Source of the DNA: Cardiobacteriaceae bacterium
Lineage (GTDB): Bacteria > Pseudomonadota > Gammaproteobacteria > Cardiobacteriales > Cardiobacteriaceae
Reading direction: 5' to 3'
Length of the DNA stretch: 50,821 bases
Assembly: GCA_030529365.1 (NCBI GenBank)
Contig: JAUMXB010000017.1
Coordinates: forward strand, 1 to 50,821
Part shown: piece after piece, positions 4,373-26,787 of the stretch
How the letters are laid out: each line of letters opens with the position of its first letter
Position numbering within the stretch: the first letter of the stretch is position 1
The notes under the pieces: generated by a model
What the model saw: only the letters and a program-made list of their open reading frames with translations
Database searches by the model: none
Told to the model about the DNA's origin: nothing
Program-made: the position numbers and the translations under genes

Positions 4373-5275
4373 ATGAACAAATCCGCCTGTCGCGGCCGTT
4401 TCGCACCCACGCCAAGCGGCTTTCTGCATTTTGGCTCGCTGGTTGCCGCGCTCGGCAGCTATCTTGATGCCCGCGCGCATGGCGGAGAATGGCTGTTGCG
4501 CATCGAAGATGTCGATCATGCCCGTTCCCGCCCCGAATACACCCGGGCCATCCTCGATGCCCTCGCTGCACACGGCATGACGGGCGATACCCCCGTGCGC
4601 ATCCAAAGCGCCCATGAAAAGGATTATGAAGACGCGCTTGGCAGGCTGCTCCCCCATCTCTATCCCTGCAACTGCTCGCGCAAGCACTGGCACGCCCAAG
4701 CAAGGGACGGCCTGCTCGGCAAGATATATCCCGGCATCTGCCGCAGCAAAACCCTTTCCTTCCCCTTGCCGCCGGATACGGCCATCCGCCTGCGCCTGCC
4801 CGCGCAAACGCTCAGCTTTGCCGACCGCCATTTCGGCCTCCAGACTTATGATTTGCAGAACGATATCGGCGATCCCATTTTGAGACGCCGCGACGGTGAT
4901 TATGCTTACGCGCTGGCCGTCACCGTCGATGACGCCCTGCAAGGCATTACCGACGTAGTGCGCGGCGCCGATTTGCTCGCCGCCACCCCCATCCAGCAAC
5001 ACCTGCAAACCCTGCTCGGCTATCCGCCGCTGCGTTACCTGCACCTGCCGCTGGTGCTGGATTCTAACGGCAACAAGTTCAGCAAACAGAATCACGCCCC
5101 CGCGCTGGATAATGGTCATGCTGCCGCCAACCTTCTCGCCGCGCTGGATTTTCTCGGCCAGGACAGCAGCGGCCTGCTTGCAAGCGACAGCCCCGCGCAT
5201 ATTCTCGAACAGGCCACGCAACGCTGGGACATCTTGCGCCTTGGCAAAAACAGAATTTTTTATAATATTCCATAA
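4373..5275 (+). CDS. gluQ: Glutamyl-Q tRNA(Asp) synthetase
   Basis: A 300-residue paralogue of the glutamyl-tRNA synthetase catalytic domain that transfers glutamate onto queuosine-34 of tRNA(Asp). Visible are the HIGH-equivalent GRFAPTPSGFLHFGSL at residues 6-21, a zinc-binding cluster (CNCSRKHW, then GKIYPGIC) around residues 100-125, and the KMSKS-like NKFSKQN near residue 240. The anticodon-binding domain is absent, as in all GluQ proteins. The start at 4373 is preferred over an in-frame one at 4340 because it places the catalytic motif at the family's usual distance from the N-terminus. In E. coli the gene sits by dksA; here it does not. Confidence 0.93.
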   Translation: MNKSACRGRFAPTPSGFLHFGSLVAALGSYLDARAHGGEWLLRIEDVDHARSRPEYTRAILDALAAHGMTGDTPVRIQSAHEKDYEDALGRLLPHLYPCNCSRKHWHAQARDGLLGKIYPGICRSKTLSFPLPPDTAIRLRLPAQTLSFADRHFGLQTYDLQNDIGDPILRRRDGDYAYALAVTVDDALQGITDVVRGADLLAATPIQQHLQTLLGYPPLRYLHLPLVLDSNGNKFSKQNHAPALDNGHAAANLLAALDFLGQDSSGLLASDSPAHILEQATQRWDILRLGKNRIFYNIP

Positions 5276-12436: not shown

Positions 12437-13207
12437 ATGGCCGCAAATACACAAATCCCGGGGTATGCGAAAACCTTAATGGCTGTCGCTGCCGTCTTTA
12501 TGCCCGTCTTCCTGATTCTGCCCTTCTTTTTCTGGGGCAACGAGAACAACCAGATCAATCTCGCCGAGCAAGACATCCAGGCCGGCCGCCTTGCGCCGGT
12601 AGGCCGCCTCAATCTCGTCAGCAGCGAACCTGCCGTCGCAGAAGGCGGAGCCGATGCTGCTGCCTTCGATGCGGAAGCCACTTACAAAAATGTTTGCGCT
12701 GCCTGCCACGCCACCGGCGTGCTCAATGCGCCCAAGCTGGGCGACACCGCACAATGGCAAGCAAAACTTGACGAGCGCGGCGGCATTGATGGGCTTATCA
12801 AGCAAGGCATCCAGGGCTTGAACGCCATGCCCCCGAAAGGTGGCGCAACTGTCAGCGATGAAGAGTTCGGCAAGGTCGTCAAATACATGCTGAAGAACTC
12901 CAGCATCGCCGTTGAAGGCGAAAGCGATGCGCCTGCGGCAGAAGCCGCGCCCGCAGAAAGCGCCCCTGCAACCGAAGCGCCTGCTGAAACCGCTCCTGCC
13001 GAACAAGCGCCTGCCGCAGAAGCCACTTCCGAAAGCGCTCCTGCCGCAGAAGCCACTTCCGAAAGCGCTCCTGTCGCAGAAGCCACTGCCGAAAGCGCTC
13101 CCGCAACCGAAGCACCTGCTGAAAGCGCTCCTGCCGCGGAAACACCGGCACCGCCTGCGACGGAAGAAGTGCCTGCCAAAAGCGAAGAAGGCACGTCGGC
13201 AAGCTGA
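12437..13207 (+). CDS. Membrane-anchored c5-like cytochrome with Ala/Pro/Glu-rich tail
   Basis: A 256-residue monohaem cytochrome c. An uncleaved N-terminal segment (about 12-33) anchors it in the inner membrane; the haem site CAACH is at residues 87-91, and the likely axial methionine is in NAMPPKGG (Met131), as in cytochrome c5. After residue 160 the protein is a low-complexity tail of alanine, proline and glutamate with near-perfect 10-residue repeats (EATSESAPAA type) encoded by 30-bp DNA repeats. Such a tail may span the periplasm or tether the haem domain. A likely role is passing electrons from the bc1 region to terminal oxidases or reductases, possibly NosZ, but no direct link is visible. 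Confidence 0.9.
   Translation: MAANTQIPGYAKTLMAVAAVFMPVFLILPFFFWGNENNQINLAEQDIQAGRLAPVGRLNLVSSEPAVAEGGADAAAFDAEATYKNVCAACHATGVLNAPKLGDTAQWQAKLDERGGIDGLIKQGIQGLNAMPPKGGATVSDEEFGKVVKYMLKNSSIAVEGESDAPAAEAAPAESAPATEAPAETAPAEQAPAAEATSESAPAAEATSESAPVAEATAESAPATEAPAESAPAAETPAPPATEEVPAKSEEGTSAS
13019..13141 (+). repeat. 30-bp tandem repeats inside the cytochrome gene
   Basis: About four 30-bp units encode EATSESAPAA, EATSESAPVA, EATAESAPAT and EAPAESAPAA. The first two units are almost identical at the DNA level, so copy number could change by slippage without breaking the frame. Confidence 0.85.
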
Positions 13208-13229
13208 ACCTGAACGCTGCCTTGTTGCC

Positions 13230-13261
13230 AGCCCTTCCGGGATTTTCCGGGAGGGCTTTTT
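13230..13261 (+). terminator. Intrinsic terminator of the cytochrome gene
   Basis: Stem AGCCCTTCCGG / CCGGGAGGGCT (11 bp with one G-U pair), 6-nt loop, then TTTTTC, starting 22 bp after the stop codon. Confidence 0.92.
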
Positions 13262-13281
13262 CATTTGGCTACCCGTAAGAG

Positions 13282-14543: not shown

Positions 14544-15982
14544 GGTTTATTACCTACGGCATATTGCGCCATCATGTCCTGCTTGAGCTGCCACAACGGT
14601 TTCGAGAGATCCACGTAATAGCCATGCGGATTGTCCAGCCGGCGCACTTCCGCCCAGATACTGGCGAGCGCCTTTTCGCGATAGGCGCGGATGCTCTCCA
14701 GCGAGGAAGGCTCGCGCACGCGCGCACCACCGGCAAACAACGGCGTGAGCAACGGCCGTGCACGGAAACCTTCCACCCATTTCTGCTTCCAGGTATGTTC
14801 CGGGTCAAACAGCAGATAAGGCGCGCTTTCATCGATATGCTCGTCATGCAGCGTCACCACATCGGCCATCGCCATGCCGTTGGCGTCATACAGGCGATAG
14901 ACCTGCTTGCGCCCCGGCGTGGTCGTTTTCGCCACATTCTCGGAGAGCTTGATTTTGGGCACCAGTTCGCCGTCTTTCTCCAGGGCGACGATTTTGTACA
15001 CCCCGCCGAATACCGGTTCGCTGCGCGCGGTAATCAGCCGTTCGCCCACGCCGAAGGCATCGATCGCCGCATCCTGATGAATCAGATCGCGAATCAGGTA
15101 TTCATCCAGGGAATTGGAGACGATAATCTGCACATCCTGCATATCCGCCGCATCCAGCATTTCCCGGGCGCGCCGCGACAGATAGGCAAGGTCGCCGCTG
15201 TCCAGGCGAATCCCTTTCAGGCGATAGCCACGCGGCACCAGATATTCATGATGCACGCGAATGGCATTGGGCACGCCGCTTTTCAGGGTATCGAAAGTAT
15301 CCACAAGCAGCACGGTATGCTCGGGATAGCATTGCGCATAGGATTGAAACGCCTCATATTCATTGGCAAAGCTCTGCACAAAGGCATGCGCCATGGTGCC
15401 AATGGCAGGAATGCCGAAATGCTGTTCCGCCGCGGTATTCGCCGTGCCATGCACACCGCCGACATACGCCGCACGCGCGCCCAGCAAGGCAGCATCGGCG
15501 CCATGCGCGCGGCGCGAACCGAATTCGAACACCTTGCGTCCGCCCGCCACATCCACCATGCGCGCCGCCTTGGTCGCAATCAGGGACTGATGGTTCAGGG
15601 TCAGCAGCAAAAACGTTTCCAGCAGCTGGCATTGCAGCAACGGCGCCCGCACGGTAAGCAGCGGTTCTCCCGGAAACACCACCTCGCCTTCCTGCGCCGA
15701 CAGCACATCGCCACTGAAGCGAAACTCCTGCAAATAACGGAGAAAACCCTCGTCAAATCCGCCTTTCCTGCACAGGAAATCAATGTCTTCCGCGCGAAAA
15801 CGCAAATTTTCCAGATACTCCGCCGCCTGCTCCAGACCGGCAAAGACGGCATAACCGCCGCCATCAGGCACGCGACGGAAAAAGTAATCAAAATAGGCCA
15901 CTTCCTCGTGCCGCCCCTGGCGGAAATAGGCATTGGCCATGGTCAGGGCATAAAAATCCATCAGCAAGGCAGGGGATGACAT
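14540..15982 (-). CDS. pncB: Nicotinate phosphoribosyltransferase
   Basis: A 480-residue enzyme making nicotinate mononucleotide from nicotinate and PRPP. The N-terminal LLMDFYALTMANAYF, the central EFGSRRAHGADAALLGARAAY and the GIRLDSGDLAYLSRRARE segment identify the family. It is closer in length to the longer NAPRT form than to the roughly 400-residue E. coli PncB. A GGAGAG ribosome site lies close before the ATG. First gene of the pncB-nadE-gamma-carbonic-anhydrase operon; repeat copy 4 lies directly upstream, between it and truA. Confidence 0.95.
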   Translation of the reverse strand: MSSPALLMDFYALTMANAYFRQGRHEEVAYFDYFFRRVPDGGGYAVFAGLEQAAEYLENLRFRAEDIDFLCRKGGFDEGFLRYLQEFRFSGDVLSAQEGEVVFPGEPLLTVRAPLLQCQLLETFLLLTLNHQSLIATKAARMVDVAGGRKVFEFGSRRAHGADAALLGARAAYVGGVHGTANTAAEQHFGIPAIGTMAHAFVQSFANEYEAFQSYAQCYPEHTVLLVDTFDTLKSGVPNAIRVHHEYLVPRGYRLKGIRLDSGDLAYLSRRAREMLDAADMQDVQIIVSNSLDEYLIRDLIHQDAAIDAFGVGERLITARSEPVFGGVYKIVALEKDGELVPKIKLSENVAKTTTPGRKQVYRLYDANGMAMADVVTLHDEHIDESAPYLLFDPEHTWKQKWVEGFRARPLLTPLFAGGARVREPSSLESIRAYREKALASIWAEVRRLDNPHGYYVDLSKPLWQLKQDMMAQYAVGNKP

Positions 15983-16000
15983 GCAAACTCTCCTTTGGTA

Positions 16001-16107
16001 ATTTTTACCACGAAAAAGGATTTATATAGCGTATTTTTACCATCAATAAGCGCTTATCATGAGAAATTTTATCGCAATAAGCGCTTATTGATGAGAAAAT
16101 TTCTCAT
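16001..16107. repeat. Palindromic array element, two dyads plus a degenerate third (copy 4)
   Basis: AAGCGCTT dyads start at 16048 and 16079 (31 bp apart); the second is the centre of the 16-bp perfect palindrome CAATAAGCGCTTATTG. A degenerate unit, AAGGATTT, starts at 16016, 32 bp before the first. The right-hand AT dyad GAGAAAATTTCTC runs into the TGA stop codon of truA at 16104. This is the longest copy in the window. Confidence 0.95.
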
Positions 16108-25260: not shown

Positions 25261-25284
25261 CCGCCCGTAACAGGGCGGCTTTTT
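25261..25284. terminator. Bidirectional intrinsic terminator
   Basis: Stem CCGCCC / GGGCGG with a 6-nt loop. On the plus strand it is followed by CTTTTTC and ends the secreted hypothetical; on the minus strand it is followed by TCTTGTTTTTG and serves nosD, whose stop codon is at 25284-25286. Confidence 0.88.
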
Positions 25285-26606
25285 CATGACTTGCCGCCTG
25301 GTGCGGGCGGTGTCATCAGCGGATGGCTGTCGGTAACGCCGCCAGGATGAATGGCGGGGAACTGCTGCTGCATGTATTTGAGCAGCTGCGCGGCAGGGCT
25401 GGTGGTGAGCGCTTTTGCCGACGGCGCGCGCCAGAGGATCTGGTCGAGCACGTTGTTGGGGCGATAGGCAGAATCAGCCACGCCGTCGCCATCGAGATCG
25501 AAGGCGCTGTTGTCGCTCCAGTAATTGCCCTTGCCTTCGTGCGACCACTCCTGGTAGCGGGTGCCGACGTACATCACCTGTGTCTGGTTGCCGATGAAGG
25601 CATTGCCGTGGATGTGATTGTCGGTGGAGCCGGCGGTGGAATGCACGCCGAGGGTGCAGCCTTCAAAGTGGTTGTCATGAAAAGCGTTCATGTTGGCGTT
25701 GTAGAGGAATACGCATTTGCCCGCGCCTTCGATGCGATTGTGATGAATTTCCGACTGGTTTACGGCGTTCAGCATCAGGCCGTGTTCCTTGCTTCTCGTG
25801 CCGTAGTTGTCATGCACCTTGATGCGGTTGGAAAACATGATGACATAGGCCGATTCCACGTCTTCGACATGGTTGCCGGAGACGGCGCTGTCTTCGGTGT
25901 ACATGTAATGCACGGCAAAGCGCATGTTCTTGAAGATGTTGTTTTGAAACTGGTTAAATGTGCCGTTATTGACGAAAATGCCATCGCGCCCGCCGGTGAT
26001 GGTGTTGCCGCGCACGATGGTATGCGGACTTTTCCAGAGCTGGATGCCGTTGCCGCGATCATTGGCACGGCCGGTGGTTTCGCCGATCACGTTATTGCCT
26101 TCCACGAGCGCGTTTTCCGGCCCCCAGATATAGATGCCGAAAAGGCTGTCGCGCGTGGTATTACCGCGCACGATGGCGCGATGCGCGCTGCGGTCGGCAA
26201 AGATGGCGGCATCCATGTCAAAGAGCTTTTTGCCGGAATGCTGCACGGTAAGCCCTTCGACGATGACGTCCTCCGCCTTGATATGCAGCGTCTTGCCCTT
26301 GCCGCCGCCATCGAGAATGCTCAAACCCCCTTCACTGCCGCTGAGCGTGATGGGCACATTGATGACGAAATTGCCTTGCCACTCGCCCGGTGCGAGCACG
26401 AGATGATCGCCAGGCGAAGCGCTATCGAGCGCGGCCTGCAAATCGGATCCGGCAGGGATGGTATGCGTTGCGGCATGAGCAAGGGAGAATGCCGCGCAGA
26501 GCGCAGGTACAGTTGGCGCAAAACGCGTAACTGTACGCCAGCGGGAAAAAAATGTACGGTTACGGCGCAAACGCCAAACCGTACTTACAATGGGAAATTT
26601 TCTCAC
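25284..26606 (-). CDS. nosD: Periplasmic copper-maturation protein NosD
   Basis: A 440-codon frame encoding a right-handed beta-helix protein of the NosD family, with repeated N-x-I/V-x-GN-type coils (VRGNTTRDSLFGIYIWG, NTITGGRDGIFVNNG). NosD helps deliver or arrange copper and sulfide in the NosZ active centre. A signal peptide ends near AAFSLAHA. The start is uncertain: the only in-frame candidates are GTG 26606, inside repeat copy 7, and TTG 26570; neither has a good ribosome site, and the first 35 codons run through two palindromes and a T7 tract. The mature protein is intact. Confidence 0.87.
   Translation of the reverse strand: MRKFPIVSTVWRLRRNRTFFSRWRTVTRFAPTVPALCAAFSLAHAATHTIPAGSDLQAALDSASPGDHLVLAPGEWQGNFVINVPITLSGSEGGLSILDGGGKGKTLHIKAEDVIVEGLTVQHSGKKLFDMDAAIFADRSAHRAIVRGNTTRDSLFGIYIWGPENALVEGNNVIGETTGRANDRGNGIQLWKSPHTIVRGNTITGGRDGIFVNNGTFNQFQNNIFKNMRFAVHYMYTEDSAVSGNHVEDVESAYVIMFSNRIKVHDNYGTRSKEHGLMLNAVNQSEIHHNRIEGAGKCVFLYNANMNAFHDNHFEGCTLGVHSTAGSTDNHIHGNAFIGNQTQVMYVGTRYQEWSHEGKGNYWSDNSAFDLDGDGVADSAYRPNNVLDQILWRAPSAKALTTSPAAQLLKYMQQQFPAIHPGGVTDSHPLMTPPAPGGKS
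26507..26584 (-). promoter_or_regulatory. Tandem imperfect palindromes with T-tract at the nosD start (possible attenuator or operator)
   Basis: Two related dyads: 26507-26536 with arms GTACAGTT / AACTGTAC and 26554-26584 with arms GTACGGTT / AACCGTAC plus an inner GGCG/CGCC pairing. On the minus strand the second dyad is followed directly by ATTTTTTT, the form of an intrinsic terminator placed just before or within the nosD start. Confidence 0.6.
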
Positions 26607-26650
26607 AAGAAGCGCTTGATGGTGGTAAAAAATGATTGTTTTTGGGTATT
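26591..26650. repeat. Palindromic array element, single dyad (copy 7)
   Basis: One AAGCGCTT dyad at 26610, left AT dyad GGGAAATTTTCTC, right end TGGTAAAAAATGATTGTTTTT. It lies between nosZ and nosD; a possible GTG start of nosD (26606) is inside it. Confidence 0.9.
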
Positions 26651-26689
26651 TTTTGAAAATTTAGTCAGGTCAACAAGAAACAGAATAAT

Positions 26690-26770
26690 GATGCAGATTG
26701 GTGGTGAGTGCGTAGCACGAACCCCAACATTTTTATTGGCGTTTGGGTTCGCCTGACGGCCCACCACCAA
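26690..26770. repeat. GTAGG-type palindromic repeat (copy A), after nosZ
   Basis: An inverted repeat of about 80 bp downstream of nosZ: outer arms TTGGTGGTG / CACCACCAA, inner arms CGAACCC / GGGTTCG around an AT-rich centre. The same elements recur near 42960-43105 and 50660-50790. It may also act as the nosZ transcript end. Confidence 0.75.
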
Positions 26771-26787
26771 CCTACATCATGAAAGCA

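Follow-up and report, generated by a model that had tools for sequence, protein, structure and literature searches.

Twenty-four families of GTAG-tagged REPs with head-head (HH) dimers have been published (PMC3733652). These repeats carry a GTAG tag at one end of a short hairpin, have alternative GC-rich complementary loops, and occur as inverted pairs, in clusters and occasionally at the N termini of ORFs (PMC3733652). An inverted REP pair is also the repeated unit of BIME and REPIN elements, which are associated with a REP-associated tyrosine transposase (RAYT) (PMC2817692, PMC3116915). Cleavage by Escherichia coli TnpAREP (group 2) needs both GTAG and unpaired positions in the stem (PMC8266576), and REP families without their RAYT have been described as possible (PMC3733652). 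Where REPs lie at ORF N termini, shorter homologues have often led to their being judged non-coding, yet Rickettsia can express proteins decorated in this way, and its palindromic elements with CGTC tags are read in frame as protein, N termini included (PMC3733652).

Here we analyse two related dyads at the start of nosD in a 50,821-nucleotide stretch of DNA from a Cardiobacteriaceae bacterium (hereafter referred to as the window). The dyads are very probably one decayed, head-outward pair (BIME, REPIN or HH dimer) that belongs to a REP family with GTAG tags in this genus and was inserted at the nosD start. GTAG heads, a bulged hairpin and units in inverted pairs are all characteristic of GTAG-REP/BIME (REPIN) elements. 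The locus would be a clear example of a conserved gene with a REP pair lodged in its start, and this assignment keeps a dispersed repeat from being entered as a nos regulatory site. The features of the locus, in window coordinates, are as follows.

25284-26606, minus strand: nosD frame from GTG; residues 1-6 are encoded by an AT-rich repeat, residues 7-35 by the REP pair, and conserved NosD begins at about residue 54.
26441-26502, minus strand: native signal peptide remnant (LCAAFSLAHA, then ATHT...) and start of the mature protein, compared with Cardiobacterium valvarum (MKKTLFLLTLPLAAYAADT..) and Cardiobacterium hominis (MIQTNQIKLTTALAVVNLFTIAHA..).
26503-26536, plus strand: left REP of the pair, with head GCAG (decayed GTAG) and hairpin GTACAGTTG-GCG-CAAAA-CGC-G-TAACTGTAC.
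26537-26553: spacer of the pair, 17 nt; its minus strand starts with ATTTTTTT, the T7 tract.
26554-26588, minus strand: right REP, in opposite orientation, with head GTAA (decayed GTAG) and hairpin GTACGGTTTGGCGTTTGCGCCGTAACCGTAC.
26589-26655, plus strand: short copy of the AT-rich repeat (GGGAAATTTTCTCA..AAGCGCTT..GGTAAAAAATG; repeat families D4, D5 and D7).
26686-26779, minus strand: third dispersed repeat, a GTAGGTTGGTGGTG... inverted pair with an outer stem of about 21 bp in the predicted RNA fold.

Read directly, the dyads are GTACAGTTGGCGCAAAACGCGTAACTGTAC (26507-26536) and GTACGGTTACGGCGCAAACGCCAAACCGTAC (26554-26584), 47 bp apart from start to start. In the direction of nosD (minus strand), an A (26553) and then T7 (26552-26546) come after the second hairpin. 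Re-reading confirmed the positions given in a preliminary description for both dyads and the A-T7 tract, as well as the absence of an ATG for nosD. Single inverted repeats with 8+8 arms and a loop of 10-20 are common in the window (46, versus 11-17 in Markov controls); it is the arm sequence common to both dyads that makes the pair meaningful. The preliminary description had proposed a search of the genome for further GTAC(A/G)GTT dyads. The strict pattern GTACRGTT-N8-20-AACYGTAC has 22 copies in the 2.30-Mb genome of the organism itself and none when the pattern is reversed; together with the near-identical arms lying side by side, this shows that the pair is not a chance pairing. These copies are spread over 11 contigs, many at loci unrelated to nos and often as inverted pairs.

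The true repeat unit is longer than the dyads as first noted, as it includes the GTAG heads, which places the outer boundaries of the nosD pair at 26503 and 26588. In the sequence surrounding the copies, the canonical unit is composed of GTAG, GTACGGTTA (9-bp stem), an inner GC-rich hairpin that varies in length and sequence, a single unpaired base, in most cases G, and TAACCGTAC. The GTAG tag is unpaired at one end of the hairpin in most units of the family, from which the nosD units diverge (GCAG and GTAA). In the left REP, the inner stem is 3 bp long and one G is bulged. The heads of the nosD copy, together with one compensated change in its arms (GTACAGTT/AACTGTAC), mark it as diverged; as both heads have decayed, head sequence alone is insufficient to classify it. 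Paired units are inverted with their GTAG heads outermost, and the spacers of the 11 pairs that were matched measure 14-22 nt. Several other spacers also contain T6-T7 or A6 runs. Sequences found in the spacers of other pairs include ATGATGGTTTTTTC, AGGATGTTTTTTTC and GATATAAACAGGCAAAAAAT.

The inner stem covaries across the family: 15 cells are changed on both sides (5.3 in shuffles), and in the family alignment it is paired in 96% of cases, compared with 24-40% when slid. A covariance model (R1) was built from 21 units, including the nosD units, which score 47.2 bits (G000:C15:26503-26536:+, E 1.7e-6) and 41.7 bits (G000:C15:26554-26588:-, E 2.5e-5) as training sequences of the model. R1 matches 38 units in the own genome, 97 in that of a sister species (78% complete) and, weakly, 5 in C. 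hominis; as the training units match by construction, the independent part of this count is the sister's copies. A further 29 genomes from the family and order gave no match. These features identify the repeats as a new family at the level of this Cardiobacteriaceae genus, belonging to a well-known kind of repeat, the GTAG-tagged REPs.

The family shares with the published GTAG REPs all of the properties listed above, from the tag to the occasional N-terminal copies. It would be set apart by its 9-bp GTACGGTTA/TAACCGTAC stem with one bulged base, as judged from the published text; Cardiobacterium is not named in the text of that survey (PMC3733652). Its spacers lie at or below the published range, which is usually 20-100 nt (PMC3733652), and the 38 copies of the own genome compare with more than 100 per genome that are usual for REPs. 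As in the E. coli REPs, GTAG is combined with a stem interrupted by unpaired positions (PMC8266576), with a single bulged base here in place of the AA-GC mismatch. By this analogy, the decayed heads of the nosD copy are predicted to be poor RAYT substrates. As with the Rickettsia elements, a palindromic repeat lies in a reading frame, but here it is one decayed GTAG pair at the start of one gene.

In the sister species, a REP pair of the family (G001:C53:16068-16181) lies 29 bp upstream of an intact RAYT (15518-16039 of the same contig; NF047646, E 2.3e-61, 206 bits). The arrangement resembles BIME/REPIN systems both in the pair adjoining the RAYT and in the larger number of copies where the RAYT is intact. 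The pair lies on one side of the RAYT, with none seen on the opposite flank. In the adjacent stretch (L081, G001:C53:16068-16784), REP pairs alternate with AT-rich repeats, and the inner hairpin of two of the REPs is extended by a long insert. Unlike such systems, the own genome has only a RAYT relic with an internal stop (TAG; C7:48290-48514), with a weak second match at C3, and an unrelated IS200. No intact RAYT was found in this draft genome (96.6% complete). Beside the orthologous gor-like gene in the own genome, there is no RAYT and the neighbour differs from that of the sister, a comparison of presence and absence only, as gene order differs past the common gene. Within this genus, REP copy number can be set against the state of the RAYT, which is intact in one species and reduced to a relic in the other. 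The single Pfam Y1 match in the own genome, on C17, was considered as the cognate enzyme and rejected, as it belongs to an IS200 with different ends of its own; this transposase (G000:C17:35639-35998) looks intact and is flanked by its own stem-loop ends.

The nosD frame is 440 codons long, intact to its end and open across all the repeats. It matches the NosD profile TIGR04247 over residues 56-432 (E 4e-141) and also matches PF05048. Comparison with C. hominis, C. valvarum and the fragment in the sister species (dN 0.21-0.23, dS 0.84-0.96) gives dN/dS of about 0.2-0.26, a lineage average in which a very recent loss would not show; these values indicate that NosD itself is conserved and under constraint. 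The sister's nosD lacks its 5' end and retains only 65 codons at a contig edge. The candidate starts in the frame are GTG 26606, which sits in the AT-rich repeat copy, and TTG 26570, which lies within the right REP; the next, TTG 26441, absent from the preliminary description, would cut into the conserved domain. Read by eye, neither GTG 26606 nor TTG 26570 is preceded by a Shine-Dalgarno-like sequence. In a genome such as this, the nosD start codon is not callable from sequence alone. At least one frame is open in 16 of 19 REP sites, and for this reason an open frame across a REP is by itself uninformative.

Residues 1-35, encoded by the REP pair and the AT-rich repeat, are absent from Cardiobacterium NosD. 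In searches, the NosD proteins of two Cardiobacterium species align only from residue 41 or 42, and their leaders have no recognisable alignment with the leader here. C. valvarum NosD starts MKKTLFLLTLPLAAYAADT..., and its DLQ ends after 28 residues; an equal length counted back from DLQ in the present frame would place the start near 26519, within the left REP. The hydrophobic window TVPALCAAFSLA, which uses the last REP codons, has a mean of 1.77, compared with 1.98 and 1.97 in two relatives. From the genome-wide family, and from homologues that would place the ATG within the REP, we infer an insertion that probably took the place of the original nosD start. The preliminary description had left two readings: an inserted repeat that displaced the native start, which these data favour, and an attenuator or operator pair for nosD, which they do not, as the palindromes are dispersed at unrelated loci and the T-run belongs to one of several such spacers.

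A mechanism consistent with the literature would begin with a RAYT, a single-strand HUH transposase, which would have acted on single-stranded DNA, recognising GTAG plus the hairpin and dispersing the pair. One pair would then have inserted at the 5' end of nosD, where it would have supplanted the native start together with the first half of the signal peptide. The frame would have stayed open through the repeats, so that nosD would now be read from GTG 26606 or TTG 26570, with residues 7-35 encoded by the repeat and the hydrophobic core and cleavage site kept. The heads would since have decayed, and the copy is therefore probably immobile now. Tentatively, the transposase-spread pair might also have been co-opted as coding sequence: it would provide a working NosD with its start region and with part of its Sec signal peptide, and the same hairpin and T7 tract would adjust the share of the nos transcript that extends to nosD.

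Several other explanations were weighed against an inserted REP pair. The hairpin at 26584-26554 and the A-T7 tract might act as an intrinsic terminator or attenuator that keeps nosD and downstream genes below nosRZ, perhaps as a secondary use of the repeat. The right REP hairpin has a folding energy of -18.0 kcal/mol, with AUUUUUUU after it, none of the shuffles folds as well as the region (z -3.25), and published GTAG REPs have been proposed as RNA elements, terminators included (PMC3733652). However, the family consensus hairpin is as strong (-18.7 kcal/mol) and the T-runs of other pairs lie at varying distances or are absent; the combination of hairpin and T-run thus follows from the repeat, and a structure no stronger than the consensus is no pointer to selection at nosD. 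The T tract, moreover, lies within the sole open nosD frame, the stem is bulged, and a simple terminator scan found none, probably because it allowed no bulge. We therefore regard a terminator as unlikely, and an acquired, secondary effect of the REP pair on nosD expression as possible.

Alternatively, the REP pair could be extragenic, no more than part of the 5' leader, with translation of nosD beginning past the two REPs, as at TTG 26441, or using a non-canonical codon. The published judgement on N-terminal REPs and the lack of Shine-Dalgarno-like sequences at the two upstream candidates are compatible with such a leader. By contrast, a start at TTG 26441, which is located at the DLQ motif, would deprive a periplasmic maturation protein of its entire signal peptide, and there is no further ATG, GTG or TTG between TTG 26441 and TTG 26570, which makes a start beyond the repeats improbable.

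That the insertion destroyed the start and left nosD silent or failing is quite doubtful. The frame has no ATG and no evident ribosome-binding site, and the repeat-derived codons would give an arginine-rich, unusually long n-region; against this stand the intact frame, the full NosD profile and the low dN/dS, averaged as it is over the lineage. Finally, an operator pair for a regulator dedicated to nosD, suggested by two similar palindromes upstream of the conserved part of the gene, is ruled out by the genome census, as the same palindromes recur at many unrelated loci with GTAG heads, a bulge and a RAYT link, and the nosD pair sits inside a reading frame.

The gap between nosZ and nosD, together with the nosD start, consists largely of three dispersed repeats. 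The GTAGGTTGGTGGTG... repeat, which fills most of the gap, has at least 39 matches in the own genome and 42 in the sister species. Paired AAGCGCTT sites of the AT-rich repeat number 462 in the own genome, 446 in the sister and 45 in one other genus, with none in controls; AAGCGCTT itself occurs 43 times in the window. All Rfam matches in the region score far below their gathering scores.

The AT-rich repeat is built from alternating palindromes, TGAGAAAATTTCTCA and TAAGCGCTTA, with AAGCGCTT copies spaced 31 bp apart, about three helical turns. A literature word search on TAAGCGCTTA found no paper describing it. In the window it is present at 5264, 7757, 8797, 16013, 21734, 23336, 34015, 34841, 37121, 39451, 40359, 45991 and other positions, which by rough gene calls are intergenic or at gene edges. 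A 15-bp periodic repeat occupies 12932-13141 of the window, inside a frame called at 12476-13264. Further GTAG-started repeats, GTAGGGTGGGTGTCAACCCACC and GTAGGTCGGCCATTGATGGC, coexist with the GTAC family and often cluster with it (L010-L022; for example, L013 2929 and 3316, L015 3014 and L020 2761), and another, GTAGGGACGTAGC..., occurs in stretch L091.
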